64,000 bases of DNA from Euzebya pacifica (GTDB lineage: Bacteria > Actinomycetota > Nitriliruptoria > Euzebyales > Euzebyaceae). Shown piece after piece: positions 3,889 through 52,195 of this stretch (position 1 is its first letter; every line of letters begins with the position of its first letter). A program made the translations under genes and the position numbers. The DNA lies in NCBI RefSeq assembly GCF_003344865.1, contig NZ_CP031166.1:124001-188000 (forward strand). Direction: 5' to 3'. Below the pieces are notes generated by a model. It worked only from the letters and a program-made list of their open reading frames with translations. It was not told the DNA's origin and did no database searches.

Positions 3889-3920
3889 TGCTAGACATGC
3901 TAGCGAAACGGTGATAGGGT
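3889..3920 (+). promoter_or_regulatory. Promoter with operator copy A (TGCTA-N7-TAGCG)
   Basis: The palindrome at 3889-3905 overlaps a -35 box TAGACA (3892-3897). A -10 box TAGGGT lies 17 nt downstream (3915-3920). It would drive the gene at 4136 through a leader of about 210 nt. The same -35-overlapping layout occurs at 48389 and 52164. Confidence 0.7.
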
Positions 3921-4135
3921 GGGGGCAGAAGTGCACGGAGCGCTTCGTGGCCCACATCAGGACCGACCCTCCGCTCCCCGGCGGCGGCGGTCCGGGCCCT
4001 CCGCCCCAGCAGGGGAGAGCAGACGCCACACGGCGGACGCATCCGGCCAGCAGACGCACACCATGACCGCACCTTGTCGGTCGTGCCGTTGTCGGGCCGG
4101 GGACGACGCAGCGCACGACCAGCAAAGGACCCGTC

Positions 4136-6778
4136 ATGACCAGCTCCCTGGCCGATGCCCGCACCGCCTACCTGGCCGCCCTCGCCGACGCCGCCGCGAT
4201 CGAACTGGCGGCCTTCCTCGCCGACTTCGGCCGCCCCGGCGCCACCGTCATCGTCGTCGAACCCGACCTTTTCCTCAGGTCCGTCGAACTGATCGAGGTG
4301 GTCTTCGCCGACGGGACCACCATGGGCCGCGATGACCTCGACGACGTCGACGTCCCCCTGTGCGTCCACCAGGGCTTCGACAACGTCGAGGCACTCGGGG
4401 AGTGGGCCGCCAACGCCGCACTGGGCAACATCGAGGAACTCCGCGTGCCCTCCGACCGGGCCGTGCGGGACGCGATCAATGGCATGCGGGCGGCGATCGA
4501 CACCGCCGCCTCCCACGACGCCGCATCGCTGTCGGACCTCATCGGGGCCACCAACGGCGTGGTCGCCGCGCTCCGGTCCGCCGGGACCGACAGCCCGATG
4601 ACGCAGGCGGCCCTGAACGCCATGGACGGCTGGCACGCCGACATCGACGCGGGATGCACCGAGTGCTTCGGCAACGGCGGGTTCGACGCAGACGGCGACG
4701 CCACCGAACACTTCGACCCCGACGACGGCGGTTCCGCCTGCGGCAACTGCGAGGGCAGCGGCTCCGAACCCGACGACGTCGTCACCGCCGCCACCATCGA
4801 GCTGTTCACGGCCCGGTGGGAGGCGGTCAACGCCGCCTACGGGGGCCACACCGCCCCTCGCGCCCCAGAGGCGTACACGCCGCTGCACGTGGCCGATGAG
4901 TGCGACGAATGCGGGGCCGACCTGACCGGCACCACCGCCATGCAGTCGTGGGCTCACGACCGGACCTGTTCGCTGTTCCCGGCCAACGAGGTCGGCTACG
5001 GGCAGGTGTTCGCCACGCTGGCCGCCGACGCCATGGGCGGTTCGGCCGCCTGGCACGGTTCCCGGCCGACCCGGTTGACCGTCCGCGCCGACGTGTCCGA
5101 CTCCGAGGTGGGGACCGGACGGGGTGTCTTCGACGTGATCGGTGCGAAGGGACCGGACTACGAACGGGCATACCGGGGCAACGACTGGTGGGGGTTGTGC
5201 GTTCCGGCAGATGTCGCCGACCCGACCCGCCGGGCGCTCTCGATGGCGGCTGGGGGGCTGCTGGCCGACATGCCGGAGGGACTGTTCGTCTTCGACCTCG
5301 ACGTCCCCCCGGCGGGCCCCGATGACGGTGACGGCGGCCTGGTTCCGGACGGGGACGGGCCCGAGGGCCGGCTGGCGGCCGCGCTGGCCGGTGAGATCGA
5401 ACGGCGCACTGGGGACCGTCCTGTCCGTATCGACGTCGCCGCAGAGGTCGCTGTCGACCAGGTCGGCTCCGGTTCCGGTGACGTGTTCGTCCTCAACTAC
5501 CGGACCACCGACGGCGCGGTCCATGTCCGCGAGCAGACAGCCGGTTGGGCGCTGCATCCGTTGGCCGACGATTCGGTCGCGCACGTCGCGGAGGTTCGCG
5601 GCGCCACCGAACGGTTCCTGGTCGACATGCCGGCAGGGGTCACCCCCGCCAACTTGGTCGTCCCGCAGCCGTGCGGATGGTGCGGTGCCGCAGGCGGTGC
5701 GGTGACCCAGCGGGCCGACCACGCCGCCGACTGCGCCGCCCGTGAGGCGTTCTGCGCCGCCTGCGATCAGATCGTGCGTGGCATTGACTGGGGCCACCTC
5801 CCCGAGGCGCACGCCAACGGTTGTCCCGACCCGGTTGCCCCTGCACGGCTCACCACCCCCGCGTCGCCGCACGCCGATCCGTGCCGGTGCGGCGGGGTGG
5901 AGGAGTGCGAGTGCCCGCCGCCGAAACCGTGCGACCACTGCCAGGTGGAGTTCGACGACCACGCCGCCGCGACCCGCCCGGCCCTCGGCCATGACCCGGC
6001 CTGCCCGTTCACCCTGGCCACGTTCACCGACCCGTTGATGGCTGACGTCGCCGTCGCACTCGCCGGCCGGGCCCCGGCCGGTGAGGCAGGCCGGTTGGTC
6101 CGGGCCATCGCCGCCCACGCCGAGGAACTCGCCGACCATCCGGTCGTCCTGTCCCGCCTGTTGCCGATGATCGACGCCGCTGCCGACGCCCAGCCGGTCG
6201 GGACCCGGCCGGACGGGCTGGCGGGGTCGGTCGCCGATGCCCTTGTCGCGCGGGGCGTCGAGCCTGGACGCGCGAACGGGTTGTGTGCCGACGGTGAGGC
6301 GTGGGCCCGGTGGATCGGCCCGATGGTCGAAGACGTCGGTGCGTGGGTCGGGCCGCTCGGCGGCATGTCCGACGCCGCCGTGGCTGACGCCGCCGTGGAA
6401 GCGGTCAAGCGCACCCGTGGGGTCAACGCCAAGGCGGCCCGCCGGCTCATCGGACAACTCGGCGGCCCCCACGCCGACGACACCGTGCGTCGAGTCGTCG
6501 CCGCGGCGGTCGGGCCGGTCACCCTCCACACCGTCGACGAGCTGTTGGCCCGCCTGCTGCCCGAGGGGTGGACCGTCGCTGGAGGCGACGGACGGGTCGT
6601 GCTTGTGCGGCCCGACGGGATCGACGTGTTCCTCGTGGGCCATGACGATTGGTCGGTCGCGGCGGTGCGTGGTGCCGATGGCCGGCACTGGTCGGTGTCG
6701 ACAGGGTTGCCGGCCGATGGCGGCTCACACCCTGTCAAGGCCGCCAGGCGGATCGCCGCACTCGCCGAACGGGACTGA
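4136..6778 (+). CDS. Large unknown protein with zinc-knuckle motifs
   Basis: The 880-residue product is not recognised. The first 60 residues are a helix (ADARTAYLAALADAAAIEL) followed by two strands (ATVIVVEPD, IEVVFADGTTM). This layout resembles the starts of the proteins at 28259 and 48641. Cys-rich patches follow: CTECFGNGG with CGNCEGSG near residue 165-205 (DnaJ-like C-x2-C-x-G-x-G), CDECGADL near 257, CGWCGAAGG near 510 with later paired Cys, and CDHCQ near 600. It lies alone behind operator A with a 215-nt leader (3921-4135) in which no convincing gene is seen. The PPAGPDDGD coding stretch at 5299-5332 is repeated exactly at 11179. Zinc binding is inferred. Confidence 0.75.
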   Translation: MTSSLADARTAYLAALADAAAIELAAFLADFGRPGATVIVVEPDLFLRSVELIEVVFADGTTMGRDDLDDVDVPLCVHQGFDNVEALGEWAANAALGNIEELRVPSDRAVRDAINGMRAAIDTAASHDAASLSDLIGATNGVVAALRSAGTDSPMTQAALNAMDGWHADIDAGCTECFGNGGFDADGDATEHFDPDDGGSACGNCEGSGSEPDDVVTAATIELFTARWEAVNAAYGGHTAPRAPEAYTPLHVADECDECGADLTGTTAMQSWAHDRTCSLFPANEVGYGQVFATLAADAMGGSAAWHGSRPTRLTVRADVSDSEVGTGRGVFDVIGAKGPDYERAYRGNDWWGLCVPADVADPTRRALSMAAGGLLADMPEGLFVFDLDVPPAGPDDGDGGLVPDGDGPEGRLAAALAGEIERRTGDRPVRIDVAAEVAVDQVGSGSGDVFVLNYRTTDGAVHVREQTAGWALHPLADDSVAHVAEVRGATERFLVDMPAGVTPANLVVPQPCGWCGAAGGAVTQRADHAADCAAREAFCAACDQIVRGIDWGHLPEAHANGCPDPVAPARLTTPASPHADPCRCGGVEECECPPPKPCDHCQVEFDDHAAATRPALGHDPACPFTLATFTDPLMADVAVALAGRAPAGEAGRLVRAIAAHAEELADHPVVLSRLLPMIDAAADAQPVGTRPDGLAGSVADALVARGVEPGRANGLCADGEAWARWIGPMVEDVGAWVGPLGGMSDAAVADAAVEAVKRTRGVNAKAARRLIGQLGGPHADDTVRRVVAAAVGPVTLHTVDELLARLLPEGWTVAGGDGRVVLVRPDGIDVFLVGHDDWSVAAVRGADGRHWSVSTGLPADGGSHPVKAARRIAALAERD
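5299..5332 (+). repeat. 34-bp exact direct repeat, copy 1
   Basis: This stretch inside the gene at 4136 is identical over 34 bases to 11179-11212, and the flanks diverge at once on both sides. Both copies are translated in the same frame, as a PPAGPDDGD segment. Confidence 0.95.
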
Positions 6779-7032
6779 CCGGTTCAGGCGGTCGACATGA
6801 GCGTGGACATCAGGGCCGATCCGAGCGGGGTCGGACCTCGTCGAGTCCCAAGTCGATTGAGTGGTGCGGGTTGCGAAACTGGCCGGTGCCCCACTCGGAC
6901 GTCTCCTCGGGCGGTCCCTGCCCGCACTGCAAGCCTGCGGGCAGGCGGCGTGGGTGCCGGGGAACCAGCGCATGGAACTGCAGGACGGTCCTCTTGCCGG
7001 TCACGCCTACGGTGTCACGACAGCTTCGGGCG

Positions 7033-9104: not shown

Positions 9105-9515
9105 TCACCCGGTGCCGCGAAGGACGGCGAGGTCGACAAGGGCGCCTTCGGCGGGGCCGTGGCGGCCGGCTCCCCAGAGGGCCTTGTCGTCGCCGTGGGT
9201 TTCGCGGGCGATGATCGCTCGGGCGACGTCGGGGGTGATGGTGACGTTGCGGGGCTTGCCGTCGGGGCGGATGTAGTCCGGGGGGACCTTGCCGCCGTGG
9301 ATGGTGGCCTCGCGGTTGCGCATGGCGGTGAGGTACCGGTCGGCGGCGGCGGTGTCGCGGTGGATGGTCCAGCCGTCGGGGCGGAGGCCCCAGCCGGCCT
9401 CGGACTCGAGCCAGTCGATGACGACGGCCCGGTCGAAGGGTGCGGCTGCTGCCGTCATGGGGTCGACCGGGAGGGTCGTGGTGGCGGTGGGTCCGGGGGT
9501 GTAGCTGGCGGTCAT
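9105..9515 (-). CDS. Hypothetical protein, 136 residues
   Basis: The start at 9515 follows a good ribosome-binding sequence (GAGGCGAGGG). A longer frame to 9548 would run into the operator and is rejected. The protein is not recognised; its middle, FDRAVVIDWLESEAGWGL, and VTITPDVARAIIARETH suggest a small globular fold. It is transcribed away from the operon at 9632, the two sharing a control region with operator copies B and C. Confidence 0.65.
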   Translation of the reverse strand: MTASYTPGPTATTTLPVDPMTAAAAPFDRAVVIDWLESEAGWGLRPDGWTIHRDTAAADRYLTAMRNREATIHGGKVPPDYIRPDGKPRNVTITPDVARAIIARETHGDDKALWGAGRHGPAEGALVDLAVLRGTG

Positions 9516-9538: not shown

Positions 9539-9578
9539 GGCTAATCATCGTAGCACATCACCGAGCGACTTGACGACC
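9539..9578 (-). promoter_or_regulatory. Operator copy B with minus-strand -10
   Basis: The sequence GGCTA-N7-TAGCA at 9539-9555 reads on the minus strand as TGCTA-CGATGAT-TAGCC, giving a -10 TACGAT preceded by TGC. The -35 match 17 nt upstream (CGTCAA) is weak. It would drive the gene at 9515. Confidence 0.55.
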
Positions 9579-9606
9579 CATGACGCAACTGCTAACATAG
9601 GTAGCA
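9570..9606 (+). promoter_or_regulatory. Promoter with operator copy C
   Basis: The -35 TTGACG (9570-9575), 17 nt, and -10 TAACAT (9593-9598) with extended TGC form a strong promoter. The palindrome TGCTA-ACATAGG-TAGCA spans 9590-9606 over the -10. It would drive the small-gene operon from 9632 to 13506. Confidence 0.8.
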
Positions 9607-10270: not shown

Positions 10271-10285
10271 CTCCGGAGAACCCCC

Positions 10286-12362: not shown

Positions 12363-13129
12363 CCGGCAACCTGCTCGTCGTGGACTGGGACTACTTCTTC
12401 CCGTCGCCCGACCCCGGCGATGACGACTGGGAGTACTTCGACTGGGCCCATCGGGAGAGCACGTTCTTCATCGAAGGGGTGTGGCCGTCCAGGGCGCAGT
12501 CGTTCCTCGCCAACGGCAGGCAGTTGCCGGGGCTCGTTGACGGGCCCGGATGGGCGACGCCCGCCGGGTTCTGGGACCGCGTGGACCTGGAGGACGGCGC
12601 CCACCTGATCGTCGTGGAGTCCAACGCCCGCGCACTGCTGGCCGGGTCCGGCTTCGACCACGTGTGGCTGTTCGACGCCCATCACGACTGCGGCTACACC
12701 AAGGGCCCCGACGCCGCCACCGCGTTGGCGCTGCGCGGCAGCGACCCAGGGGCGTTCTGGCAGTGCGGCGACTGGATGGTGCCGCTGCACGCCGCCGGCG
12801 CCGATCTGCACGTCCGCTACCCGACCTGGCGGACCCAGGCGATGACGATCGAACCCGAGCCGGTCGTCGAGGTCGACCGGGCCTTCGACGACGGCACGAG
12901 GCCGCCGGTGGCGTTCGACACCGTTGTGGTGTGCCGGTCCGGGGCTTGGGTGCCGCCCTGGCACGACCAGGCCTTCATCGGCTTCGTCGACGCCGCCCCC
13001 GTGGACACCATCGAGGTCCCCGAAGACGCCATCGACCCCATGACCCCCCGGCCCTTCGATGGCGACCTCGCGCGATCGCTTGCCGAGCAGACCCGCGAGC
13101 TCATGGCCGCCATGGAGGAGCGAGGATGA
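12359..13129 (+). CDS. Arginase-fold-like protein (UPF0489-type, tentative)
   Basis: The ATGA overlap fixes the start. Residues 5-12 read LLVVDWDYF and about 105 reads VWLFDAHHDCGY; the DAHHD cluster recalls the metal-binding D-x-H-x-D of the arginase/deacetylase superfamily and of UPF0489 proteins. A later DWMVPLHAAG follows. No second metal cluster was placed with confidence, so catalysis is uncertain. At 256 residues it is near the length of such domains. The substrate is unknown, and the neighbours give no pathway. Confidence 0.45.
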   Translation: MTGNLLVVDWDYFFPSPDPGDDDWEYFDWAHRESTFFIEGVWPSRAQSFLANGRQLPGLVDGPGWATPAGFWDRVDLEDGAHLIVVESNARALLAGSGFDHVWLFDAHHDCGYTKGPDAATALALRGSDPGAFWQCGDWMVPLHAAGADLHVRYPTWRTQAMTIEPEPVVEVDRAFDDGTRPPVAFDTVVVCRSGAWVPPWHDQAFIGFVDAAPVDTIEVPEDAIDPMTPRPFDGDLARSLAEQTRELMAAMEERG

Positions 13130-13506
13130 CGCTGCCCCCCACCCAGCACCTCCTCCTCGACCTGCTCGCCGCCCGCGCACGTCTGGGTGAGGCCGTCTGG
13201 ACAGTGCCGAACACCTGCCGGCAGGCCATCGACGCCCTCGCCGCGGACGGGTTGGTCAAGCACAAGTCGGCACCAGTCGCCGGGCACCAGCTGGTGTGGC
13301 TCACCGAGGCCGGCCGGGCGGAGGTGATGTCCGACGGGTACGTGCCGCCGCGCGACCGACCGACATGGGTGGCCGACACCGACGGGGCGATCACCGGGCC
13401 GTTCCACGACCAGCACGACGCCGACATCCACGCGGCCAGACACGGCGGAACCGTCCGACAGATCCACCCACCTGAACCCCTCGACCCCCAACCGAAAAAG
13501 AGCTAG
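13126..13506 (+). CDS. Possible winged-helix protein
   Basis: The ATGA overlap with the previous gene fixes the start. Residues 5-75 look like a small winged helix: QHLLLDLLAARARLG, then VPNTCRQAIDALAADGLV as a recognition-helix region, and LVWLTEAGRAEV as the wing. The 50-residue tail is hydrophilic. It could be a DNA-binding regulator, though the motif is weak. It is the last gene of the operator C operon; the stop falls inside operator D. Confidence 0.45.
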   Translation: MTLPPTQHLLLDLLAARARLGEAVWTVPNTCRQAIDALAADGLVKHKSAPVAGHQLVWLTEAGRAEVMSDGYVPPRDRPTWVADTDGAITGPFHDQHDADIHAARHGGTVRQIHPPEPLDPQPKKS

Positions 13507-13517
13507 TATTGATAGCA
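13481..13517 (+). promoter_or_regulatory. Promoter with operator copy D
   Basis: The -35 TCGACC (13481-13486) and -10 TAGTAT (13504-13509) are 17 nt apart. The palindrome GCTA-GTATTGA-TAGC (13502-13516) covers the -10. It drives the micro-ORF at 13554 and the genes after it. Confidence 0.75.
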
Positions 13518-16076: not shown

Positions 16077-16115
16077 TTGACCCACCCCACCCATGAGTGC
16101 TACGATAGGTAGCAC
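16077..16115 (+). promoter_or_regulatory. Promoter with operator copy E (perfect palindrome)
   Basis: The -35 TTGACC (16077-16082), 18 nt, and -10 TACGAT (16101-16106) are present. The palindrome here is the longest, with perfect arms GTGCTA and TAGCAC (16097-16115, 7-nt centre). It drives the operon 16143-19758. Confidence 0.8.
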
Positions 16116-16142: not shown

Positions 16143-16547
16143 ATGAAGATCCTCGTCGCCACCGCCAAGGGGCAGGGCATCCGCACCTCGGACTACCACT
16201 TCGCCACCGAGGGGGAGCACGTCGTGTTCGCCTCCGAGTGCGACCGCCGCGAGTCCATCGACGGCCGCTGCGGCTGCAAGCGCGGGTTGGCGGGCACCAC
16301 CAGCCGCAAGGTCACCACCACCGCCCTCGTCATCGACGCCGACATCGACCGGCAGGACTACATCGACGGGATCGTCGCCGCGCAGGCCGAGGCGTGGGCG
16401 GATCTCATCCCCACCGAAGAACTGGTCGAGGAAGCCGAGGAGATGCTCCGCATCGCCGACTGCTTCCCCGTCGGCGCGGTCGTGGAGAAGCGCGGCACCT
16501 CCATCAAGATGCGCGACCCCCGCGCCGTCACCGCAACGTCCGCCTGA
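16143..16547 (+). CDS. DUF7715-like small protein
   Basis: GGGAAGGG sits nine bases before the ATG. The start KILVATAKGQGIR, the middle CDRRESIDGRCGCKRGLAG and VTTTALVID fit a widespread actinobacterial family of about 130 residues (I recall it as DUF7715) with a conserved G-C-G-C-x-R-G-F/L-x-G core. Its function is not known to me. The C-terminal helix (TEELVEEAEEMLRIAD) is acidic. It is the first gene of the operator E operon. Confidence 0.55.
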   Translation: MKILVATAKGQGIRTSDYHFATEGEHVVFASECDRRESIDGRCGCKRGLAGTTSRKVTTTALVIDADIDRQDYIDGIVAAQAEAWADLIPTEELVEEAEEMLRIADCFPVGAVVEKRGTSIKMRDPRAVTATSA

Positions 16548-19769: not shown

Positions 19770-19806
19770 TTGACCTCCAAACGATGAAGTGCTAAGATAG
19801 GTCGCA
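19770..19806 (+). promoter_or_regulatory. Promoter with operator copy F
   Basis: TTGACC (19770-19775), 17 nt, TAAGAT (19793-19798). The operator reads TGCTA-AGATAGG-TCGCA (19790-19806), with one base changed in the right arm. It drives 19833-21243. Confidence 0.75.
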
Positions 19807-20428: not shown

Positions 20429-21243
20429 CGATGGCCATACCCCCCGATCCGGCGGCCCTGACGGGGAGCGGCCGGATGCGGCTGTTCCACGCCACCCCCG
20501 TCCACCTCGGGCCGGGCGATGAACTGCTGCCCGCCTCGCGGTCGGGCACGAGCGTCTGGGGCGACGGGTTCCCCGGTGAGGAGTGGCGCCGCGCCCGTGT
20601 CTGGCTGTCCGCCACCCCGCAGGACGCCGCCGACTGGCTGGGCGGCTGGTACGACGGAGGGCCGACCAGGGTCGTGGAGGTCCGCGCGCCCGATGCCGTT
20701 CGCCTCGAGGTCGACCCCGACGACGAGGAATCGCTCGACCACGGAATGACCGGGCAGTGGCACGCCCCGACCGCGACGATCGTCGGTGTCGTCCCGCCAC
20801 CCCCTGCTGAGGAACGTGAGCGCATGAACGGTGATGCCGCCGAGTTCGACCCCGACGACCTGGACCTGTCGGCGTTGACCGACGAGGAGCTCGACTCGTT
20901 GCGCCGACGCGTCGATGCCGAGCGGATGGCCCGGCACGCTGCCCAGTTCACCATCGGCGACACGATCACGATCAACGGCCGGATCGAACCGGCCAAGCTG
21001 GCCGGCGCGACCGGCACGGTGGTGAAGGTCAACGCCCGGACGGTCGCGGTGGTGCTCGACGACGAGGGTCTCGTCGCACCGTCGTACCGAAACGCCGACG
21101 GATCGGTGAACGTCCGCTTGGCGCGGTCACCGCCGAGTAGCGGCAGCCACGCGGGGCCGGACGACCATCCACACAAGGAGTGCCCGTGGTTCGGGCGGAC
21201 GTCGATGAGGAAGCCCTTGACGCCCCTCGAACCCCTTTGCTAA
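20425..21243 (+). CDS. Arr-like ADP-ribosyltransferase domain plus KOW-like tail
   Basis: The GTG at 20425 overlaps the previous stop; an ATG at 20431 is also possible. Residues 13-30 (RMRLFHATPVHLGPGDELLP) resemble the HGT-x-L-x-x-GD loop of Arr proteins and the gene at 2035; RVVEVRAPDAVRLEV matches the later VEP strand and IVGVVPPP the end. After an acidic helical linker, residues 170-220 (IGDTITINGRIEPAKL, GATGTVVKVN) look like a KOW/SH3-type barrel. The last 30 residues run into promoter G and may be extra. The activity is unproven. Confidence 0.5.
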   Translation: MTMAIPPDPAALTGSGRMRLFHATPVHLGPGDELLPASRSGTSVWGDGFPGEEWRRARVWLSATPQDAADWLGGWYDGGPTRVVEVRAPDAVRLEVDPDDEESLDHGMTGQWHAPTATIVGVVPPPPAEERERMNGDAAEFDPDDLDLSALTDEELDSLRRRVDAERMARHAAQFTIGDTITINGRIEPAKLAGATGTVVKVNARTVAVVLDDEGLVAPSYRNADGSVNVRLARSPPSSGSHAGPDDHPHKECPWFGRTSMRKPLTPLEPLC

Positions 21244-21254
21244 GATTACTAGCA
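21217..21254 (+). promoter_or_regulatory. Promoter with operator copy G
   Basis: TTGACG (21217-21222), 18 nt, TAAGAT (21241-21246). The operator TGCTA-AGATTAC-TAGCA spans 21238-21254. The -35 lies within the 3' end of the upstream gene. It drives 21341-22808. Confidence 0.75.
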
Positions 21255-24996: not shown

Positions 24997-25025
24997 TTGC
25001 TAATAACGCTAGCACTTGCTAGTCT
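24997..25025 (+). promoter_or_regulatory. Promoter with operator copy H, leaderless layout
   Basis: The operator TGCTA-ATAACGC-TAGCA (24998-25014) overlaps a -35-like TTGCTA (24997-25002); a -10 TAGTCT follows after 17 nt (25020-25025). Transcription would start near 25032, exactly at the GTG start codon. Confidence 0.65.
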
Positions 25026-29430: not shown

Positions 29431-29467
29431 TGCTAATAACCGTAGCACATGGGCATCGTTGGTTCAA
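29431..29467 (-). promoter_or_regulatory. Promoter with operator copy I (minus strand)
   Basis: On the minus strand, TTGAAC (29467-29462), 17 nt, TACGGT (29444-29439). The palindrome TGCTA-N7-TAGCA covers 29431-29447 over the -10. It drives 28259-29248. Confidence 0.75.
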
Positions 29468-35997: not shown

Positions 35998-36035
35998 TGC
36001 TATCAATCCTAGCAGATATCCGGTGCCAAGGTCAA
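35998..36035 (-). promoter_or_regulatory. Promoter with operator copy J (minus strand)
   Basis: On the minus strand, TTGACC (36035-36030), 18 nt, TAGGAT (36011-36006). The palindrome TGCTA-TCAATCC-TAGCA covers 35998-36014. It drives 33825-35816 and 32698, away from the defence operon that starts at 36130. Confidence 0.75.
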
Positions 36036-36129: not shown

Positions 36130-39100
36130 ATGACCGACCTGCTGCCCGACCTCTACGACCGCGAACGCGCCTGGACAGACCCCGCCAAGCACGGCATCAG
36201 TCCCCGAGCCCAATGGTCCGGGAACGGCAAGAACGCCCTGTGGGTCTGCCACGCCACCGCCAACAAACGGCCCGCCAACGGCCACGTCATCGACGTCTGG
36301 AGGCAACGGCAGGGCAACGGCGCAGCCCCTGTCCTGCTCGTCATCACCCACCACGGTGGCGCGGTCCTGTGCGGCCCGTCCGGGGATTCTCCACCGGTGG
36401 TCGACTTCGATGCCGACGTCGCCCGACGCATCGCCACCACCGCCTTGGAACTGCCCACCCGGCACGCCGCCGCCCGCAAAGTCTTCGGCTACCTCGACAC
36501 CGACGGCGAGGAAGCGACCGGCATCATAAACCGGGGTCTGTTCGCCACTCACCACCTCCGTACCGGTGTGCCCGATCGGCCCGACTGGGACGATGCCCGC
36601 ACCACCGCCGAACCGGCCATGGACAAGGTGGACCGCGAACTCGTCGCCGCCCTCGGCTGGACCATCGAACCCCAAGGCGTCCACGAGGTCCTGCGCGACC
36701 CCGATGACCAGACCGCACGGGCGGTCGCGGTCTTCCTCGCCCCTGACGAATCGGCCGACGTCGCCTCGGTCAAGCGCAACAACACCAGTCCCGTCTCCTG
36801 GGCGATGACCCACGCGGACCGCAATAACATCCCATGGGTCGTCACCGTCCAGGACCGGGCGATCCGCCTGTACTCCACCGCCACCTCCGGCGCCGCCGGA
36901 CAGGGGTCCCGCGAAACCACCTACGCCGAGCTGGACCTCACCATCCTGCCCGGTGAGCTCGCCGGCTACCTCACCCTGCTGTTCTCCGCCGACGCCCTCG
37001 CACCGGGCGGTACCGCCGAACAGATCCGCGAAGCCTCAGCCGACTACGCTGCCGCGCTTGCCGAACGGCTCCGCGAACGCGTCTACGACCAGGTGATCCC
37101 CGCCCTGGCCACCGCCATCGCCGCCAAGGACTCCGGCCCGGAGGGGCCGGACCTCGACGCCGCCTACAGGACCGCCCTCACGGTGCTGTTCCGCCTGCTG
37201 TTCCTAGGCTACGCCGAGTCGAAGCGCCTGCTGCCCTACAAGCGCAACACCGACTACACCGACGCCTCCCTGGCCAAGCAAGCCCGACGGCTCGCCGACC
37301 TCCATAACGAAGGCGCCGATCTCGGGTTCGACAACCCCCTCACCCCCCAGATCGAGGCGCCCACCGACACCGACCAGACCGACCTGTGGGACACCTGCGC
37401 ACGGCTGTTCCGCGTCGTTGACAAGGGCCACACCCGCTACGGGGTCCCCGTGTACAACGGCGGACTGTTCTCCGACGACCCCGACGTCAACCCCGCCGGC
37501 GCCACCATCGCCGACCTGGCGCTGTCCAACACCGAGTTCGGCCCGCCGCTCATGGCCCTGCTCATCGACCACACCCCCGACGGGGGCGCCGGGCCGATCG
37601 ACTTCCGCAGCCTGTCAGTCCGCGAGTTCGGCACGATCTACGAAGGCCTGCTCGAATCCGAACTCGCCCTCGCCGACCAGGACCTCACCCTCGTCAAGCG
37701 AGGCAACGACCAGGTCTATGAACCCGCAGGAGCGATGGATGAGGTGGTCGTTGCCGAGGGCGAGGTGTACCTCCACAACGCCTCCGGCGCCCGCAAGGCC
37801 TCCGGGTCCTACTTCACCAAGCCCTTCGCCGTTGAACACCTCATAGGCACCGCGCTGCTACCAACCCTCGACGAGCACCTCGACCGGATCGCCGACCTCC
37901 TTGGGCAGGGCCAGGAAGCCGATGCAGCCGAGCAGTTGTTCGACTTCCGCGTCGCCGACATCGCGATGGGCTCCGGGCACTTCCTCACCGCCGCCGTTGA
38001 CGAGATTCACGCCCGCATCTCCGCATGGCTCGCCGACCATCCGATCGCCGGTGTCGACATCGAGATCGACAACCTCCGCAGGGCCGCCCGGCAATCGCTG
38101 CCCGAAGGGCAGCACGACCTCGTCGAAGACGCCGCCCTCCTGCGACGCCTCATCGCGCGCCGGTGCGTCTACGGCGTCGACCTCAACCCGATCTCTGTGG
38201 AACTCGCCCGCGTATCGATGTGGATCCACACCTTCGTGCCCGGACTCCCGCTGTCCTTCCTCGACCACAACCTCGCCATTGGCAACAGCCTCACTGGGGT
38301 GGCCAGCCTCGATGAGGCTCTGGACGCGTTGTCCCCACGCGCAGAAGGCGCTGCTGACGGGAAGACGATGCTCACCGCATCTTTGGGTATGGACGTGCTG
38401 CGCAGTCACCTGGCTGCCGCTGAACAACCCCTCAGCCGACTCGGCCAGATCCTGGACACTACGACCTCCGACATCGAGGAGTCCCGGCTCCTGGCGCACG
38501 AAGCCGCAGCGGCCATCGCACCCCTTGAGCGGTTGCTAGACGCCGTGGTGGCCGCGCGTCTTGGGGAGACCCCCATGCCCAACATCCTCGTCGAGAGCGA
38601 CGTGCTGGACGCCGGCAGCGACCAGGCCAGCACCGCCGCCGCCGAGGTGGACGCGTTGCACTTCCCGATCGCTTTCCCCGAGGTGTTCATACGCGACCGG
38701 GCAGGGTTCGACGTGCTGATAGGCAACCCCCCATGGCAGGAGGCAACGATCGAGCGGCACGGGTTCTGGGCGCTACGGTTCCCCGGCCTTCGCAGCCTCG
38801 ACCAAGCCAAGATGGAAGCCGAGATCGACGCCCTTGCCCGATCCCGACCTGACCTCGTGGCGGGCTACGAGCAGGAGGTCTCCGACATGGAAGCCATCCG
38901 GGCGACACTGCACGCCGGACCGTACCCAGGCATGGAGACCGGCGACCCAGACCTCTATAAGGCGTTCGCTTGGCGATTTTGGCACCTGCTGCGGCTCGGC
39001 GGGCGCACCGGAGTCGTGCTGCCCCGTGGGGCCATCGCGATGCTCGGATCCCAGGCCTGGCGGCAGGAACTGCTCGACCACGGGGCGTTGGAGCAGATCG

Positions 39101-40221
39101 TGCAGCTCACCAACAAGGGCGGCTGGGTGTTCGATGGTGTCGAACCCCGGTACACGGTCGCATTCAACGTGCTGCGTCGAAACCCACTGGGGACCGTCAC
39201 CGATCTGCGCCTCTACGGACCCTATGACAACCGGATGGACTACGACACTGGGATCGCCGGGCCAGGAGCGGTCGTCCCGACCGACGAGCTGCGTAAGTGG
39301 ACCCAAGCGGCCTCGGTGCCATTGATGGCCTCCGAGCGTCACGCCGAGGTTTTCCGGGTGCTTCGTCGCCACCGGAAGGTCGCCGAGTTGCCCTTCGCGT
39401 ATATCCGGGAACTCGACGCGACCAACGACAAGAAGCACATGATCCTCAACCCAGGTGCCACAACCGGACTGTGGGAGGTCTGGAAGGGCTCGTCGTTCGA
39501 CATCTGGCAACCGGGCACCGGCGAGGTGTACGCATATGCCGATCCGGCCTACATGACCGAGGTGTTGGAGAAGAAGCGCACCCGTAGTCGCAACATGAAG
39601 ATCATGCCGCCCGCATGGCGCACCGACCCGGACACCCTCCCCGTTCTGAACTACCGCATCGCCTTCCGCGACATCGCCCGCGCCACCGACTCCCGCACCA
39701 TGCGGGCATGCCTCATCCCACCCGAGAAGCCACTGACCAACAAGGCACCGTACCTGCTGCGCAGCGACAAGGCGACGGTGCAGGACGAGGCTTACCTCCT
39801 CGGCGTGCTCTGCACGCGCGTGTTTGACTGGCAGGCCCGATGCACCGTCGAGACGAACGTGAACAAGTACGTCCTTGACGACTTTGCCGTCCCGTGGCCC
39901 ACCAACCCGGACCATCCGGGACGTCGACGGGTAGTTGAGATCGCCACTCGTCTGGCCGCGCAGACACCCGACTACACCGAGTGGGCGAAGCCACTCGGCC
40001 ACGAACCCGAACCAGTCAGCGCAGCCGACACCGCGGAACTGCTGGTGGAACTCGACGCCACCGTCGCCCGTCTCTACGGCCTCACCCGAGACGACCTCAC
40101 CCACCTCTACGCGACCTTCCACCCCACCGGCGGCCATGAAGCGTTCGGTCAAAAGGTCATCGCCCACTTCGACACGCTGGACTTCGGTTCCGCCCACCCC
40201 ACCGACAAGGTCACCGCATGA
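36130..40221 (+). CDS. Eco57I-type adenine-N6 DNA methyltransferase, large
   Basis: The 1363-residue protein carries S-adenosylmethionine motif I as VADIAMGSGHFLTAAVDEI (about residue 609) and the catalytic N-P-P-W motif IV as DVLIGNPPWQEA (about 865). The N-terminal 550 residues and the C-terminal 450 are accessory, the latter with CTRVFDWQARCTVE and FAVPWP as in target-recognition parts of type I/IIG enzymes. The order methyltransferase then helicase recalls type ISP, BREX and class 1 DISARM (DrmMI) enzymes. It should methylate adenine in a specific site and protect the host. The stop overlaps the helicase start (ATGA). Confidence 0.85.
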   Translation: MTDLLPDLYDRERAWTDPAKHGISPRAQWSGNGKNALWVCHATANKRPANGHVIDVWRQRQGNGAAPVLLVITHHGGAVLCGPSGDSPPVVDFDADVARRIATTALELPTRHAAARKVFGYLDTDGEEATGIINRGLFATHHLRTGVPDRPDWDDARTTAEPAMDKVDRELVAALGWTIEPQGVHEVLRDPDDQTARAVAVFLAPDESADVASVKRNNTSPVSWAMTHADRNNIPWVVTVQDRAIRLYSTATSGAAGQGSRETTYAELDLTILPGELAGYLTLLFSADALAPGGTAEQIREASADYAAALAERLRERVYDQVIPALATAIAAKDSGPEGPDLDAAYRTALTVLFRLLFLGYAESKRLLPYKRNTDYTDASLAKQARRLADLHNEGADLGFDNPLTPQIEAPTDTDQTDLWDTCARLFRVVDKGHTRYGVPVYNGGLFSDDPDVNPAGATIADLALSNTEFGPPLMALLIDHTPDGGAGPIDFRSLSVREFGTIYEGLLESELALADQDLTLVKRGNDQVYEPAGAMDEVVVAEGEVYLHNASGARKASGSYFTKPFAVEHLIGTALLPTLDEHLDRIADLLGQGQEADAAEQLFDFRVADIAMGSGHFLTAAVDEIHARISAWLADHPIAGVDIEIDNLRRAARQSLPEGQHDLVEDAALLRRLIARRCVYGVDLNPISVELARVSMWIHTFVPGLPLSFLDHNLAIGNSLTGVASLDEALDALSPRAEGAADGKTMLTASLGMDVLRSHLAAAEQPLSRLGQILDTTTSDIEESRLLAHEAAAAIAPLERLLDAVVAARLGETPMPNILVESDVLDAGSDQASTAAAEVDALHFPIAFPEVFIRDRAGFDVLIGNPPWQEATIERHGFWALRFPGLRSLDQAKMEAEIDALARSRPDLVAGYEQEVSDMEAIRATLHAGPYPGMETGDPDLYKAFAWRFWHLLRLGGRTGVVLPRGAIAMLGSQAWRQELLDHGALEQIVQLTNKGGWVFDGVEPRYTVAFNVLRRNPLGTVTDLRLYGPYDNRMDYDTGIAGPGAVVPTDELRKWTQAASVPLMASERHAEVFRVLRRHRKVAELPFAYIRELDATNDKKHMILNPGATTGLWEVWKGSSFDIWQPGTGEVYAYADPAYMTEVLEKKRTRSRNMKIMPPAWRTDPDTLPVLNYRIAFRDIARATDSRTMRACLIPPEKPLTNKAPYLLRSDKATVQDEAYLLGVLCTRVFDWQARCTVETNVNKYVLDDFAVPWPTNPDHPGRRRVVEIATRLAAQTPDYTEWAKPLGHEPEPVSAADTAELLVELDATVARLYGLTRDDLTHLYATFHPTGGHEAFGQKVIAHFDTLDFGSAHPTDKVTA

Positions 40222-43200
40222 GCCACAAGCCCGAGGTCGTCTCCAACCGTCACGGCACCGTCGCTGACGCCATCGGCGGTTACTGGGACCACTTCCTGAC
40301 GCACCGTCCCGGCGACCTCGCCCTCGCGATCGCGTCGGCTTACTTCAACCCCGGCGGGTTCAAGCTCCTCGCTGACCGGCTCGAGGCCGCCGCCAAGGTC
40401 CGGCTGCTCATCGGGGCCGAGCCAGACGTGGCCGCCGACATGTTCAGGCGCCGGTCCCTGGCCGCGTCGCGTCCAGGGCACACGATGAAGGCCCGACTTG
40501 CCGAAGCACTAAAGGAGCACCTTGCAGAGATCGAGGTTGACCGTGACCTCATCGCCTTCACCCCCGGCAACGACGCGCTCGTCGAACGGCTCATCGCGTG
40601 GCTGCGCAGCGACGCCGTGGAGACTCGACGGCTCACCAGCCAGTTCCTCCACGGCAAGGCCTACATCCTTGAGACCGACAGCGAAGGTGTGGTTGCCGGG
40701 TCGTCCAACTTCACCTACGCCGGGCTGGCCCGCAACGTCGAACTCAATCTCGGCCACTACGAGCCCTACAAGGTCAAGCAGGTCCAAGACTGGTTCGAAG
40801 AGTTGTGGGACGAGGCCGAGGCCTACGACCTTGCGCGCCTCTACGAACGTCGTTTCGAGGACCACCAGCCATGGATCGTGTTCCTCAGGATGCTCTACGA
40901 ACGCTACGGCGACGACCTCGACGTCAGCGACGAGTCCTTCGGCATCCCGATGCTGCCCTTCCAGGCCGAAGGGGTCATGCGGGCCCGGAGGTTCCTTGCC
41001 CGCTACAACGGTGTCGTGATCGCCGACGGCGTCGGGCTCGGCAAGACCTTCACGGCCGGCCAGCTCATATGGGAAGCCGTGCACGACCGCCGCCAACGGG
41101 TCCTGCTCATCGCCCCCGCAGCACTGCGTGACGGTCCTTGGGCCAAGTTCCTCGTAGAGCACGACCTCGAAGCCGTCACCTCGATCTCCTATGAGCAACT
41201 CTGCAACGACATTCGTCTGGGTGGCACCAAGGAGGTCTTGAAGCACGACCCCGACGACTACGCCATGGTCGTCATCGACGAGGCCCACGCCTACCGCAAC
41301 ACCGGCACCGAACGAGCAGGGGTGCTCCGCGAACTGCTGAAGGGCTCGCCACAGAAGGACCTCGTGCTGCTGACCGCCACCCCGGTCAACAACAGCCTGA
41401 TCGACCTCTACAACCTGCTCGCCTACTTCATCCGCAACGACGGAGAGTTCATGCCCGTCGGCATCCCGTCGCTGCGCAAGCACTTCGCCGCAGCCCAGGC
41501 TGCAGACCCCGAGGACCTCTCCCCAGACCTTCTCTTCGACGTCCTCGACGCCGTTGCCGTCCGGCGCACCCGACGGTTCGTCAAGAAGCACTACGCCGGC
41601 ATGGAACTGCCTGGCCTGGGACCCATCCGGTTCCCCGAGCCGAAGGTCACCCGCGTCGACTACGACCTCGACGCCGTCATCCCAGGCTTCTTCAACGACT
41701 TCGCCCACGCCCTCGGGATGGACCCGGACGACCCCGACACGCCCATCCCCACCCCCGACCAGTTCGACTACCAATCCGGCCAGCTCACTCTCGCCCGCTA
41801 CGCCCCCTCTGCCTTCCTGGCCGACCCCGACGCCGATCCGGAACCCTATGAGATGCAGGCCGCAGGCCTGCTGCGCTCCGGCCTGCTCAAGCGATTCGAG
41901 TCCTCCTCTGCGGCGTTCGCCAAGACCTGCCGCAAGATGGCCGCCTCACACGACCTGTTCCTCGACGCACTCGACGACGGATGGGTGCTGACCGGTGACG
42001 CCCTTGCCGAGTACGCAAGGACCGACACCGACTACGACCCGTCTGACTACGACGGCGGCGGCACCCGCGGTGACGCTGCCGACTACGACCTCGACGAGCT
42101 CCGTGCGGCCGTCGAGGCCGACAGGAACCTGCTGGAGGAGTTCGCCGGCCGGGCCGAGGCGATCGGTGTTGCCGACGACCCCAAGCTCGACGCCCTGATC
42201 GAGGCGCTCGCCGCGATCGCCGAGCAGGCCGACCATGACGGACTCACCCCACGCGAGCAGCAAGACAACCGCAAGGTGCTGCTGTTCAGCTACTACGGCG
42301 ACACCGTCGACTGGATCATGGAACGCCTCGCCGATGCAGTCGTCACCGACCCGAGGCTTGCGGCCTACACCGGTCGGGTCACATCGGTCACCGGCGACGA
42401 CGGCGACAAGAAAGAGGTCATGTACGGGTTCGCGCCACGGACCGCCGGGGCGCCGGACGGGTGGACCGACAACTACGACATCCTCGTTGCCACCGACGTT
42501 CTGGCGGAGGGCGTCAACCTCCAGCAGGCACGCCACATCATCAACTACGACCTGCCGTGGAACCCGATGCGGCTTGTTCAACGGCACGGACGCATCGACC
42601 GTATCGGCTCTCCGCACCCCAAGGTGTGGATGCGTTGCTTCTTCCCCTCCGATGTCCTCGACGACCTCCTCGGTCTCGAAGCACGCATCCAACGAAAAAT
42701 CGCCCAGGCCGCCGCCTCGATCGGTGTGGAGGACGAGATCATCCCCGACTCCGCGGTCGCCGAGGTGGTGCTCGCCCACACCAAGGAACAGATCCAGGCG
42801 ATCCACGACGAGGACGCCGCCCTGCTCGACGACGACCATGCCCCCGGTGCCCTGTCGGGCGAGGAGTTCCGCAAGATCCTCGCCGACGCCATGGACAACG
42901 CGACCACACGCGCCAAGGTCCTCGGGTTGCCGTGGGTCGCTGGATCCGGGTTCCGCAGCAGTGGCAACCCCGGGTTCGTGTTCTGCGCCCGAGTGGGCGA
43001 CCACCCCGAAGCGGTGTTCCGGTGGGTCCCCATCGACACCGACGGCAACACCCTCGTGGAGGCGGACGGCACCACGATCCTTTCGGACCAGACGCTGCAG
43101 GCCATCGCGCGCGCCCAGTGCGAACCAGCCACCGACTTCGACCTGCCCGACGCGGCACGGGACAAGGCGTACACGGCCTGGGAAGCGGCACGTGACGACA

Positions 43201-43610
43201 TCCTGGCGAAGTGGGCCGACCTGTCGGACCCGACCAACGTTGTGGTGCCGGTCCCGAAGACGATGCGACGGGCCAAGGAGCTGCTCATCAACCACCCCCC
43301 GGCCGGCGTCACCCAGGACAAGCTCGACTGGTACGACGAAGCCCTCTCAGCCCCCTACGACCACCGCACCCAGAGGATCCTGCGGCAAGCAATCATCGAC
43401 CATGACAACCCAGCTGACCAGGCCGTCGAGATCGTCAAGGTCATCCACGACCTGGGACTCGAACCCCAACCGGAGGTCCAACCCCTCCCGGAGATCGAAG
43501 CCGACGACATCTACCTGGTGTGCTGGATGGCCGTGTTGCCCGAATCCAACAGCGCTTCAGACGTGCTGTTGGAGCAGCCTGAGGGCCTTCCTGCGCAGAT
43601 CGACTCATGA
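40218..43610 (+). CDS. PLD-nuclease/SNF2-type helicase fusion
   Basis: The ATGA overlap with the methyltransferase fixes the start. Residues 1-190 are a phospholipase-D-like domain with one HKD motif: HGKAYILETD and, six residues on, GSSN (about 145-165), so a dimer would be needed for cutting. A helicase follows: Walker A GVGLGKT (about 272), DEAH box VVIDEAHAYRN (about 353), motif III TATPVNN, and motifs V-VI ATDVLAEGVNLQQA and QRHGRIDRIG (about 755-800). SNF2-like enzymes translocate along double-stranded DNA. Likely role: ATP-driven scanning and cutting of unmethylated invading DNA. It shares features with DISARM DrmD and other PLD-helicases. Confidence 0.85.
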   Translation: MSHKPEVVSNRHGTVADAIGGYWDHFLTHRPGDLALAIASAYFNPGGFKLLADRLEAAAKVRLLIGAEPDVAADMFRRRSLAASRPGHTMKARLAEALKEHLAEIEVDRDLIAFTPGNDALVERLIAWLRSDAVETRRLTSQFLHGKAYILETDSEGVVAGSSNFTYAGLARNVELNLGHYEPYKVKQVQDWFEELWDEAEAYDLARLYERRFEDHQPWIVFLRMLYERYGDDLDVSDESFGIPMLPFQAEGVMRARRFLARYNGVVIADGVGLGKTFTAGQLIWEAVHDRRQRVLLIAPAALRDGPWAKFLVEHDLEAVTSISYEQLCNDIRLGGTKEVLKHDPDDYAMVVIDEAHAYRNTGTERAGVLRELLKGSPQKDLVLLTATPVNNSLIDLYNLLAYFIRNDGEFMPVGIPSLRKHFAAAQAADPEDLSPDLLFDVLDAVAVRRTRRFVKKHYAGMELPGLGPIRFPEPKVTRVDYDLDAVIPGFFNDFAHALGMDPDDPDTPIPTPDQFDYQSGQLTLARYAPSAFLADPDADPEPYEMQAAGLLRSGLLKRFESSSAAFAKTCRKMAASHDLFLDALDDGWVLTGDALAEYARTDTDYDPSDYDGGGTRGDAADYDLDELRAAVEADRNLLEEFAGRAEAIGVADDPKLDALIEALAAIAEQADHDGLTPREQQDNRKVLLFSYYGDTVDWIMERLADAVVTDPRLAAYTGRVTSVTGDDGDKKEVMYGFAPRTAGAPDGWTDNYDILVATDVLAEGVNLQQARHIINYDLPWNPMRLVQRHGRIDRIGSPHPKVWMRCFFPSDVLDDLLGLEARIQRKIAQAAASIGVEDEIIPDSAVAEVVLAHTKEQIQAIHDEDAALLDDDHAPGALSGEEFRKILADAMDNATTRAKVLGLPWVAGSGFRSSGNPGFVFCARVGDHPEAVFRWVPIDTDGNTLVEADGTTILSDQTLQAIARAQCEPATDFDLPDAARDKAYTAWEAARDDILAKWADLSDPTNVVVPVPKTMRRAKELLINHPPAGVTQDKLDWYDEALSAPYDHRTQRILRQAIIDHDNPADQAVEIVKVIHDLGLEPQPEVQPLPEIEADDIYLVCWMAVLPESNSASDVLLEQPEGLPAQIDS

Positions 43611-48388: not shown

Positions 48389-48420
48389 TGCTAGACATCA
48401 TAGCGGTACAATGCTATGGT
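48389..48420 (+). promoter_or_regulatory. Promoter with operator copy K
   Basis: The operator TGCTA-GACATCA-TAGCG (48389-48405) overlaps -35 TAGACA (48392-48397); -10 TATGGT follows after 17 nt (48415-48420). It drives the gene at 48641 through a leader of about 220 nt, as at 3889. Confidence 0.7.
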
Positions 48421-48640
48421 GGGGGTGTGGCACCGAGGCGGTGCCCGATGGCCAACAGGGACCGACCCCGCCCGGTGGGGGAGGAACCGTTCACCGGCCC
48501 CAACCGCACACCAGCGGAATCGCCATCACCCCACCACACGTTAGACAGGCACCCCCTGGCCGACGGATTCGTGGGCGGATGGACACCGGGCACCCAAAGC
48601 CGTCCGCCCGCAGCACACGTCGTGCCGGAGAGGAACCGCC

Positions 48641-50689
48641 ATGTCCACGACCACCGACGCCTTCACCGCCGCGCTCGAGGCCGCCCGAGATGCCGCGATC
48701 ACCGAACTCACCCGTCAGGTCCGCACCCGGATCCCGGCCGCCGTTGCCGTCCAGATCGACATCGAGGACGAGGACCTGCCGGGCCACCAGATCACCTTCA
48801 TCGGAGCCGTCCGGCTCGCCGGCGGCCGCGTCCTCCACACCGACCCCGGCGGGCTGCCGTGGGACGACGGCTGCGACTTCGCCGGCGAGGACCGCCACCT
48901 GATCGCCGATGCCGCCGACTGGGATCCCGACAACGACCCGGCCGATGAGTTCCACCAGTGGGTGGAGGAGTTCCGTGACGACACCCGCGAGTGGCCCACC
49001 TCGCTGGTGGACACCTTCCGGTACGCCGACGGCGCATGGATCGACCTGGACGGCCCGTCCGTCAACACCGCCGATCCGGTCGACGGCGACGGTGACGGCC
49101 CGGTTGAACGGCGGGCGGTCGAGTTCGGCATCGAGCACCTGCCCGACGGCACCATCGAGTCGCTGATCGACCAGGCCGGGGTGACCAGTGACGTCATCGA
49201 CGGCGTGCACATCCGCAACGCGGCCGCCCACGGGATCACCCTGCGGGTCCACGAGGGGTTCGCCGCCGACTGGGATCCCGACGGCACCGGGGCCATCGAC
49301 TGGGACGCCGTTCTCGCCGCACTCGTTGCCGATGCCGACTACTCGGCGCTGCTCGGGCCGATCCGTGCCGCCGTGGAGGGCGGCTTCGACGTGGTGATGT
49401 TCGTTCAGGACGGCCCCCGCCCACCGGCCCCCAACACCGGCCGGATCACCGGCATCGCCACGGGACGGATGGTGCACGGACCGGTGGCGGAGCGGGTCGT
49501 GGCCGATCTCGCCGGCGCGGTCGGTTCGGAGGTCCCCGGCGGGCTGACCGTGGTGGCCGATGACCGGGCGGCACGCCGGTTCGACGGTGGCGAACCGCAG
49601 TCGGTGTGGCTTGCCCCCACCGGGCCGGTCGACCCCGACGCGATCGGCGACGGGAACTTCCGCAACGTCGTCGGCAACGCAGCCGCACGGTTCGCCGATC
49701 TCATCGAGGTGTCCAACCTCGAACAGCACCGCACCAGCACCTACATGGACGCCACCGTCGTGTTCACCGCAGCCGACCGGCGGCTCATCGACAACCGGTC
49801 GGGCCGGTGCATCTTCGATGGCGTGTGGATCGACGGGGGCGACCCGTCGGGGGCCGACCCGATGTACCTGACCGTTGACGGCCCGTCGGTCAGTGAGGCC
49901 ATGCGGCTGCTCGCCGGAGAGGGCGCCTACGGACTGCTGGCCGTCACGGCACTGGCCCGTGCCAACGAGGCCACCACCGTCCGGGTCGTCGCAATCGGCT
50001 GGAACGACGCGGTCGGTTCGGTGGCCCGGTGGGCCGAGTCGATGGCACCGTCGCAGACCGCCGGCGTCGTGGGCGGCATCGGGTCGGTCACGCTGGAGGT
50101 CACCGGCGGCGTCGCACGACTGGTCGGGTTCACCGAGGCCGACGGCCGGCGTTGGGTGTCCGGCCCGCCGACCGATGGGCTTGCGGAGGCGTTCGTTGGC
50201 AGCGACGCCCGCCTCCTCGTTCAGATGGCGTCCAACGGCGCGGCTTGGGACCTGCCCGCAGGGTCAAGAGGCGAGTTCGTCGTCACGACCGCCGGGACAT
50301 GGGAGGCCGGCACCAAGGCGGGGTTGCGGGCGGACGGGCCGATGTGGCGGATCGCCTGCCGCGACGGCCTGACCGACGGCAACGGTTTGGTGTTCTGGTC
50401 CGATGAGGACGGCTGGGGGACCGATGACGGGACGTGGGCGACCCGCTACACCGACGCGCAGAAGGCCGCCGGCGACCTGCCGCTGCCCGACGGCGACGGT
50501 CCGGTGTGGTGGGTGCCAGACGCGCCCACGGGACGGCAGCACACCAAGGCCGTCGATGACCTCGCTGCCATGGGGGTGTCGCGCCGGCTGGCCGGCCGGA
50601 TCATCACCCAGGGGATCTATGACCGGGCCCCTGACCCGGTGGCGGCGGCCGACGCTGTGGCGGCCCGGACCCGCTCGCAGCGCCGCTAG
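48641..50689 (+). CDS. Large unknown acidic protein, operator-linked
   Basis: The ATG follows GGAGAGGAACCGCC. The first 60 residues (AFTAALEAARDAAITELTRQ, then HQITFIGAVRLAGGRVLH) share the helix-strand-strand plan of the proteins at 28259 and 4136, and DGAWIDLDG is followed by an acidic linker. The rest of the 682 residues alternates strands and helices with many Asp and Trp; no Cys clusters, no Walker motif and no nuclease signature were seen. The last 40 residues (DDLAAMGVSRRLAGRIITQ) form helices resembling a helix-hairpin-helix. The 220-nt leader shows no convincing gene. Confidence 0.65.
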   Translation: MSTTTDAFTAALEAARDAAITELTRQVRTRIPAAVAVQIDIEDEDLPGHQITFIGAVRLAGGRVLHTDPGGLPWDDGCDFAGEDRHLIADAADWDPDNDPADEFHQWVEEFRDDTREWPTSLVDTFRYADGAWIDLDGPSVNTADPVDGDGDGPVERRAVEFGIEHLPDGTIESLIDQAGVTSDVIDGVHIRNAAAHGITLRVHEGFAADWDPDGTGAIDWDAVLAALVADADYSALLGPIRAAVEGGFDVVMFVQDGPRPPAPNTGRITGIATGRMVHGPVAERVVADLAGAVGSEVPGGLTVVADDRAARRFDGGEPQSVWLAPTGPVDPDAIGDGNFRNVVGNAAARFADLIEVSNLEQHRTSTYMDATVVFTAADRRLIDNRSGRCIFDGVWIDGGDPSGADPMYLTVDGPSVSEAMRLLAGEGAYGLLAVTALARANEATTVRVVAIGWNDAVGSVARWAESMAPSQTAGVVGGIGSVTLEVTGGVARLVGFTEADGRRWVSGPPTDGLAEAFVGSDARLLVQMASNGAAWDLPAGSRGEFVVTTAGTWEAGTKAGLRADGPMWRIACRDGLTDGNGLVFWSDEDGWGTDDGTWATRYTDAQKAAGDLPLPDGDGPVWWVPDAPTGRQHTKAVDDLAAMGVSRRLAGRIITQGIYDRAPDPVAAADAVAARTRSQRR

Positions 50690-51276: not shown

Positions 51277-51376
51277 GGTGAACTCCTGGACTGCGGGGTG
51301 GCAAGCGACCAACCCATCGGCCGGGCCCAACGAACTGTGAGCGGTCATGTCGTCGGGCGGGTGCACCATCGTGGTG

Positions 51377-51946: not shown

Positions 51947-52161
51947 CCGCCGACCTGCCGAAGGTCGGCGCGCCTGCCGGCCGTGCCCTTGCCGCCCACG
52001 GCATCCACACCCTCCGGGACGTGGCACGACACACCGAGGCCGAACTCCGAGCGATGCATGGCGTCGGCCCGAAAGCGGTCGGAATCCTGCGCGAATCCCT
52101 GGAACGCCACGGACTGGCGTTGCGCAACGAGGACCTCGACAGACCCACCCGCAAAGAATGA
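51943..52161 (+). CDS. Helix-hairpin-helix protein
   Basis: The GTG overlaps the dcd stop. The 72 residues read as one HhH unit: VGAPAGRALAAHGIHTLRDV, HTEAELRAMHGVGPKAVGIL and RESLERHG. The G-V-G-x-K-A turn is the hairpin that grips the DNA backbone. Such small proteins are often annotated as DNA-binding, without enzyme activity. It is coupled to dcd. Confidence 0.75.
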   Translation: MTADLPKVGAPAGRALAAHGIHTLRDVARHTEAELRAMHGVGPKAVGILRESLERHGLALRNEDLDRPTRKE

Positions 52162-52163
52162 AG

Positions 52164-52195
52164 TGCTAGACGTGCGAGCACAGCATTGCTAGGGT
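52164..52195 (+). promoter_or_regulatory. Promoter with operator copy L, leaderless layout
   Basis: The operator TGCTA-GACGTGC-GAGCA (52164-52180) overlaps -35 TAGACG (52167-52172); -10 TAGGGT (52190-52195) follows after 17 nt. Transcription should begin near 52202, the A of the start codon. Confidence 0.7.

Follow-up and report, generated by a model that had tools for sequence, protein, structure and literature searches.

Why does one short palindrome recur in front of so many operons of a Euzebya pacifica plasmid? We address this question for a window of 64,000 nucleotides, bases 124001 to 188000 of C2 (G000:C2), the 571,580-bp megaplasmid contig that accompanies the 5.80-Mb chromosome contig, C1, in this assembly. 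Positions given without a prefix are those of the window, and positions on the whole plasmid contig are prefixed with C2. A sequence-only reading had listed twelve copies of the palindrome TGCTA-N7-TAGCA in the window and had compared them with the repressor sites of a phage immunity system or a plasmid-wide switch. We found that the twelve coordinates are all correct and that every copy exists, but that six of them carry one mismatch, which the reading had left unstated. We consider it likely that TGCTA-N7-TAGCA serves as the operator for a single dimeric helix-turn-helix (HTH) regulator that is encoded on the plasmid and acts across it, most probably as a repressor.

The copy number far exceeds chance. 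Dinucleotide shuffles of the window expect 0.00 perfect and 0.11 one-mismatch copies, and the largest count in any shuffle was 2; we observed six of each, with the mismatch usually at the outermost base. Across the 571 kb of C2, we counted 28 perfect and 23 one-mismatch copies, 51 in total. The ten-fold larger chromosome (5.8 Mb) holds no perfect copy and eight with one mismatch, and all 28 perfect copies of the genome thus lie on C2. Only the seven-base spacer is enriched there, as other spacers from N3 to N13 gave no perfect copy and at most four with one mismatch. When all 5-mer dyads with spacers of 0 to 20 were counted on C2, TGCTA-N7-TAGCA ranked first by a wide margin (28 versus 0.01 expected). 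Of 46 occurrences of the core GCTA-N7-TAGC, 44 are intergenic; other spacers give zero to three occurrences. We called genes on C2 with a home-made codon-composition caller, which gave 539 genes and a contig that is 82% coding and 18.2% noncoding. The sequence-only reading had proposed that equal density inside coding regions would refute it; instead, we found that 49 of the 51 sites are intergenic (log10 P of about −33) and that the other two fall in doubtful gene calls. Copies with two mismatches number 40 on C2, of which 12 are intergenic, near background. This suggests that most true sites lie within one mismatch.

The symmetrized matrix of the C2 sites shows what is conserved. G2 and C3 are invariant, T4 is present in 99%, A5 in 95%, and T1 in 83% of positions, and within C2 the right arm is conserved as strongly as the left. 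The arms had been proposed as the recognized part and the center as variable. The first half of this proposal agrees with the near-invariant G2, C3, and T4, but the center is biased, with A at position 8 in 62% and A or T at position 9 in 80% of symmetrized sites. The preference for A at position 8 is also kept in sites that do not overlap a −10 element. The extended consensus of the operator is approximately WWKTGCTANNAWTNNTAGCAMWW.

We found that the sites stand in two fixed relations to promoters. In the first class (26 of the 51 sites), the left arm supplies the TGC that extends a −10 of the form TAnnnT, a TTGACA-like −35 lies at 16 to 18 bp, and the right arm coincides with the predicted transcription start. 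In the second class (the other 25 sites), the left arm lies outside any −10, and both arms are conserved nearly as in the first class. Fourteen of these have a TAnnnT 3 to 9 bp downstream toward a gene, which puts the site over the spacer and the −35 region; such an element is found at 1.1 to 1.5% of random positions and at 2 of the 26 first-class sites. All 14 promoters on C2 with the pattern TTGAC-N17/18-TGCTAnnnT have the right arm, none with more than one mismatch. This excludes the explanation that the motif is only an extended −10, as does the half of sites with no −10 overlap, and it bears out the earlier view that an extended −10 fails to explain the right arm. The possibility of a plasmid-wide switch, also raised earlier, agrees well with a site that is plasmid specific, nearly always intergenic, and fixed in its geometry to promoters.

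The twelve window sites illustrate both arrangements. Ten are wholly intergenic, and the remaining two, at 13501 and 21238, share 6 bp with the end of the preceding gene. They face gene starts on both strands: most point toward a plus-strand gene, the copy at 9539 points toward a minus-strand gene, and several lie between divergent genes. Four copies lie at −10 elements with a recognizable −35: a perfect copy at 9590 to 9606 (plus strand), which overlaps the extended −10 TGC-TAACAT at 17-bp spacing from TTGACG; a perfect copy at 16098 to 16114 (plus strand; TTGACC N18 TACGAT), ahead of a DUF7715 gene at 16143 to 16547 (plus strand); a one-mismatch copy at 19790 to 19806 (plus strand; TTGACC N17 TAAGAT), ahead of a stand-alone WYL-domain gene at 19833; and a perfect copy at 21238 to 21254 (plus strand; TTGACG N18 TAAGAT). 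The one-mismatch copy at 13501 to 13517 (plus strand) is also of the −10 type. That at 9539 to 9555 (minus strand, one mismatch) faces the gene at 9105 to 9515 and is paired with the copy at 9590. Three one-mismatch, plus-strand copies lie 9 bp upstream of a −10: 3889 to 3905 (TGCTAGACATGCTAGCG; TAGGGT), ahead of a plus-strand gene at 4136 to 6778 that encodes 880 amino acids and has no Pfam match; 48389 to 48405 (TATGGT), ahead of a gene at 48641; and 52164 to 52180 (TAGGGT), where the second downstream gene, at 52650 to 54200 (plus strand) in the thyX operon, encodes a protein like the thymidylate synthase ThyX. A perfect copy at 24998 to 25014 (plus strand) is 5 bp upstream of the −10 TAGTCT. 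The perfect copies at 29431 to 29447 and 35998 to 36014 lie between divergent genes, the latter 115 bp before a type IIG restriction enzyme-methyltransferase gene (36130 to 40221, plus strand).

We also noted a subclass of sites, mostly TGCTAGACAT..TAGCG, at 3889 and 48389 in the window and at C2:53443, C2:84782, and C2:86322. Each lies 9 bp upstream of a −10 and precedes a large unannotated gene with a leader of about 210 to 235 nucleotides. An Rfam search of the window, including its copies of this long-leader subclass, gave no match.

To list the genes behind the sites, we walked along consecutive same-strand genes from each site. About 134 of the 539 called genes on C2, roughly a quarter, lie behind about 50 sites. 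In the window, this walk yields 42 called genes, where about 35 had been estimated. Behind the sites, either directly or within operons, we found genes for a DnaG primase, an NAD-dependent ligase, a nicotinate phosphoribosyltransferase, a C5 cytosine methylase, and a DinG-like helicase. The DnaB helicase gene (C2:545635-548952), which has an operator 18 bp upstream, holds an intein sequence with splicing and LAGLIDADG domains. A WhiB protein (c78) and a multi-HTH protein (c58) are each encoded directly behind a site. Another site, at C2:345060, is about 400 bp upstream of an array of 32 tRNA genes (C2:345478-359104) that covers most amino acids. The predicted type IV secretion system (T4SS) region, at about 495 to 549 kb of C2, contains no site; the nearest, at C2:548971, is at its edge, upstream of dnaB. 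In the window, the type IIG gene adjoins a gene for an SNF2-type helicase resembling DrmD of DISARM, forming a defense-like module (36130 to 43610) directly behind an operator copy.

According to the model that we favor, one plasmid protein probably holds roughly a quarter of the C2 genes in check, including much of the replication machinery. Positions over the −10 and start or over the −35 and spacer are classical for steric repression. At about half of the sites, the first class, the dimer would cover the −10 and the transcription start, and the left arm would at the same time serve as the extended −10. Most of the remaining sites would place it directly ahead of the −10, over the spacer and the −35 region. 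Since RNA polymerase would be blocked from either position, repression is the expected outcome. About 50 operons would thereby be held down together by one regulator, among them those with dnaB, dnaG, the ligase, the phosphoribosyltransferase, the C5 methylase, restriction-modification, the thyX operon, WhiB, and the multi-HTH protein, and probably also the tRNA array. The lack of perfect copies on the chromosome suggests that the regulator belongs to the plasmid, and we infer that the same protein acts at all sites. The operons would be released wherever the regulator is missing or has been inactivated, such as upon entry into a new cell, a trigger that we propose by analogy with RP4, whose KorA- and KorB-controlled operons are transiently induced in transconjugants (PMC7314908).

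Several observations weigh against this model. Promoters were assigned by consensus matching, and gene starts are predictions. A recognizable −10 is lacking at 11 of the 25 second-class sites, and a site positioned in the spacer could also serve a MerR-like activator. Among the candidates weighed as the regulator (an FtsR paralogue, multi-HTH proteins, WhiB, XRE proteins, and the small protein before 13501), none was singled out. Finally, we found no homologous element that carries the motif in the relatives' genomes and plasmids searched. Genomes of the same genus, family, order, and class have only zero to two perfect copies each. In eight actinobacterial plasmids that encode a related coupling protein, no perfect copy is present and one-mismatch copies number zero to two. 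Distant homologues of the regulated DUF7715 gene elsewhere have no upstream site. Dyad scans of two of the coupling-protein plasmids (one complete, the other over 400 of its 546 kb) revealed no comparable dispersed promoter palindrome; one of the two has TA-rich repeats and ACAGA-N1-TCTGT. A scan of a genome-contig collection, run with a spacing 1 to 2 bp too long, is uninformative; its hits were isolated ones, chiefly in unrelated metagenome-assembled genomes. At the correct spacing, a scan of IMG/VR gave nothing that looks related: most matches were single, and the others came from a family of AT-rich contigs (about 5 to 15 kb) in which TTTAGCA repeats cluster and from a 73%-GC contig where one repeat occurs twice.

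The repressor model can be made more specific by naming the XRE (Cro/CI-like) protein encoded at C2:254123-254617 as the regulator. This protein is the best of the candidates, though a doubtful one. It was suggested by a genome of the same genus (G001), in which the one perfect copy precedes an XRE gene by 27 bp. The C2 protein is the best match on the plasmid to the G001 protein, with the helix region AAAxAGVxLxTWxxxE in common, and across 396 genomes and the plasmid collection both it and the motif were confined to C2. In contrast, the similarity between the two proteins is weak (phmmer E value, 0.0016) and orthology is not established, the promoter of the C2 gene itself has no site (four mismatches at best), and a relative of the helix in IMG/VR has no site nearby. 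The single copy in G001 could be due to chance. Homologues of the G001 protein also have no upstream site, and we rejected that gene as a lead.

Close to a site lie three genes whose products have known or suspected DNA-binding domains: those for c58 and c78, behind one, and a gene at 13126 to 13506 (plus strand), the last before the site at 13501, whose small product is winged-helix-like by eye and has no Pfam match. The last is a candidate by position only, and for the multi-HTH, WhiB, and XRE proteins as well as this small protein, position alone does not decide. Proteins with up to six tandem homeodomain-like HTH units form a family on C2, encoded near C2:27426, 53530, 267192, 270552, 273960, and 306922; c28 (C2:27426-28325) has six such units, and the gene near C2:53530 spans C2:53530-54774. 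We rejected the MerR-family FtsR paralogue of the window (55725 to 56216, minus strand). It is 55% identical to the chromosomal FtsR, whose recognition helix and wing it shares, and the published FtsR site, a 25-bp inverted repeat (AACCCTAAAGTAAAGGTTGAGGGTA; PMC6683498), is unlike TGCTA-N7-TAGCA.

The same sites could instead bind a mainly activating or dual regulator of the MerR or GlnR kind, which would activate from the spacer and repress from the −10. We consider this improbable. The box of GlnR and TnrA, which belong to the MerR superfamily, is TGTNA-N7-TNACA (PMC6191146), so that it has the 17-bp length, 5-bp arms, and N7 spacer of the C2 operator and shares TGxxA-N7-TxxCA with it. MerR-type activators bind the spacer between −35 and −10 (PMC6683498), and 14 sites on C2 lie just upstream of a −10. 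At half of the sites, however, the operator lies over the −10 and start, a position from which activation would be unexpected. Every copy has C as its third arm base (100% of symmetrized sites), versus T in the GlnR box, and the C2 motif is plasmid restricted. We found no GlnR-type protein on C2; the MerR proteins found there are the FtsR paralogue and an atypical one (C2:439301-439984).

It is very unlikely that the palindrome is itself part of the promoter, for example an extended −10 for a plasmid sigma factor joined to a start-site motif. An alternative sigma factor (c382) is encoded on C2, and the 26 first-class sites read TGC-TAnnnT at promoter spacing from a TTGAC-like −35. The other 25 sites nevertheless keep both arms, 14 of them with a separate downstream −10, and dyad symmetry with an exact N7 is no sigma-factor signature. 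The least credible explanation is a replicon-maintenance site, for partition or organization, that is intergenic by happenstance: the sites are restricted to C2 and dispersed, as are some ParB and KorB sites, but they keep a fixed spacing to −10 elements, and the role of centromere or origin is better filled by a second palindrome, GGTGTG-N9-CACACC, which lies among iteron-like repeats beside parA.

Seven copies of GGTGTG-N9-CACACC are clustered at C2:556873-557204 with the iteron-like repeats (AAACCGCAGGTCA), about 0.4 kb downstream of parA and a gene that is ribbon-helix-helix-like by eye. Seven further copies are dispersed on C2, including one at 1256 to 1276 in the window, and one is chromosomal. 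This arrangement suggests a plasmid centromere or origin to which outlying sites belong.

Repression that spans a plasmid by way of dispersed operators is already known from the IncP Kor proteins and P1 C1. RP4 is a plasmid of roughly 60 kb, and Kor operators are TTTAGC-based with no or one central base. The IncP proteins KorA and KorB of RK2/RP4 are plasmid-encoded global repressors that act at dispersed palindromic operators in promoters, coordinate replication, maintenance, and transfer, and are derepressed in recipients (PMC7314908, PMC4889941). As in the Kor network, C2 has many palindromic operators at promoters that are restricted to the plasmid. RP4 has 7 KorA and 12 KorB operators (PMC7314908), whereas C2 has about 51 copies of one operator on 571 kb and a T4SS region with no internal copy. 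The arms TGCTA and TAGCA with N7 do not match the Kor operator type. In a scan of part of the 539 proteins for Kor homologues, the only match was a subthreshold one to KORA, over the HTH of c321 (E value, 0.0028); by eye, the partner of ParA resembles a ribbon-helix-helix protein. We place the C2 system outside the Kor family, since its operator has a different sequence and none of the proteins scanned was identified as a homologous regulator.

The sites of P1 C1 and the stoperators of mycobacteriophages are asymmetric. Both systems otherwise resemble C2 in having many sites on a large replicon and one regulator, here a proposed one; P1 C1 is one repressor that acts at many dispersed operators across its replicon (PMC8198154). 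C2 encodes ParA and T4SS-like proteins (VirB6/TrbL-like and VirD4-like), and phage hallmark and structural genes lay outside the survey. Between the two comparisons first offered for the window, a plasmid regulon therefore fits better than phage immunity. C2 differs from these known systems in the scale of about 51 copies on one replicon, the operator sequence, the content of the regulon, and the lack of a recognized regulator.

Two other features of C2 were observed. Arrays resembling clustered regularly interspaced short palindromic repeats, with the repeat core CCCCGC-GCAG/CTGC-GCGGGG and a period of about 61 bp, occur in the window (2689 to 2824), at C2:121906-122714, and at C2:346416-346492, the last inside the tRNA array. 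Many otherwise unrelated C2 proteins begin with a cysteine-rich segment (C-x-x-x-T-x-x-G-x-x-C ... C-x-x-G/D-H) followed by a DPFA-like motif, for example those at C2 positions 36341, 42620, 95872, 111608, 259276, 338484, 461822, 468974, and 507520. This segment could be a common tag or targeting domain.

A bolder and less likely reading is that a single repressor silences a near-complete accessory information-processing set, which would then be expressed in a burst once a new host is entered, a plasmid counterpart to the zygotic induction of phages. If true, this set would include the replicative helicase, primase, ligase, nucleotide and NAD enzymes, methylases, and a 32-tRNA array under about 50 near-identical operators. 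We know of no plasmid for which release of this kind has been described at such a scale. How very large plasmids silence hundreds of genes is poorly known beyond a few Gram-negative plasmids and H-NS-like silencers. The DNA side is unusually clear on C2, with one high-information operator in about 50 copies and no perfect copy on the chromosome. This system would thus allow one to ask whether the replisome genes and tRNA array of a megaplasmid are under the control of one specific repressor and not of a nucleoid protein.

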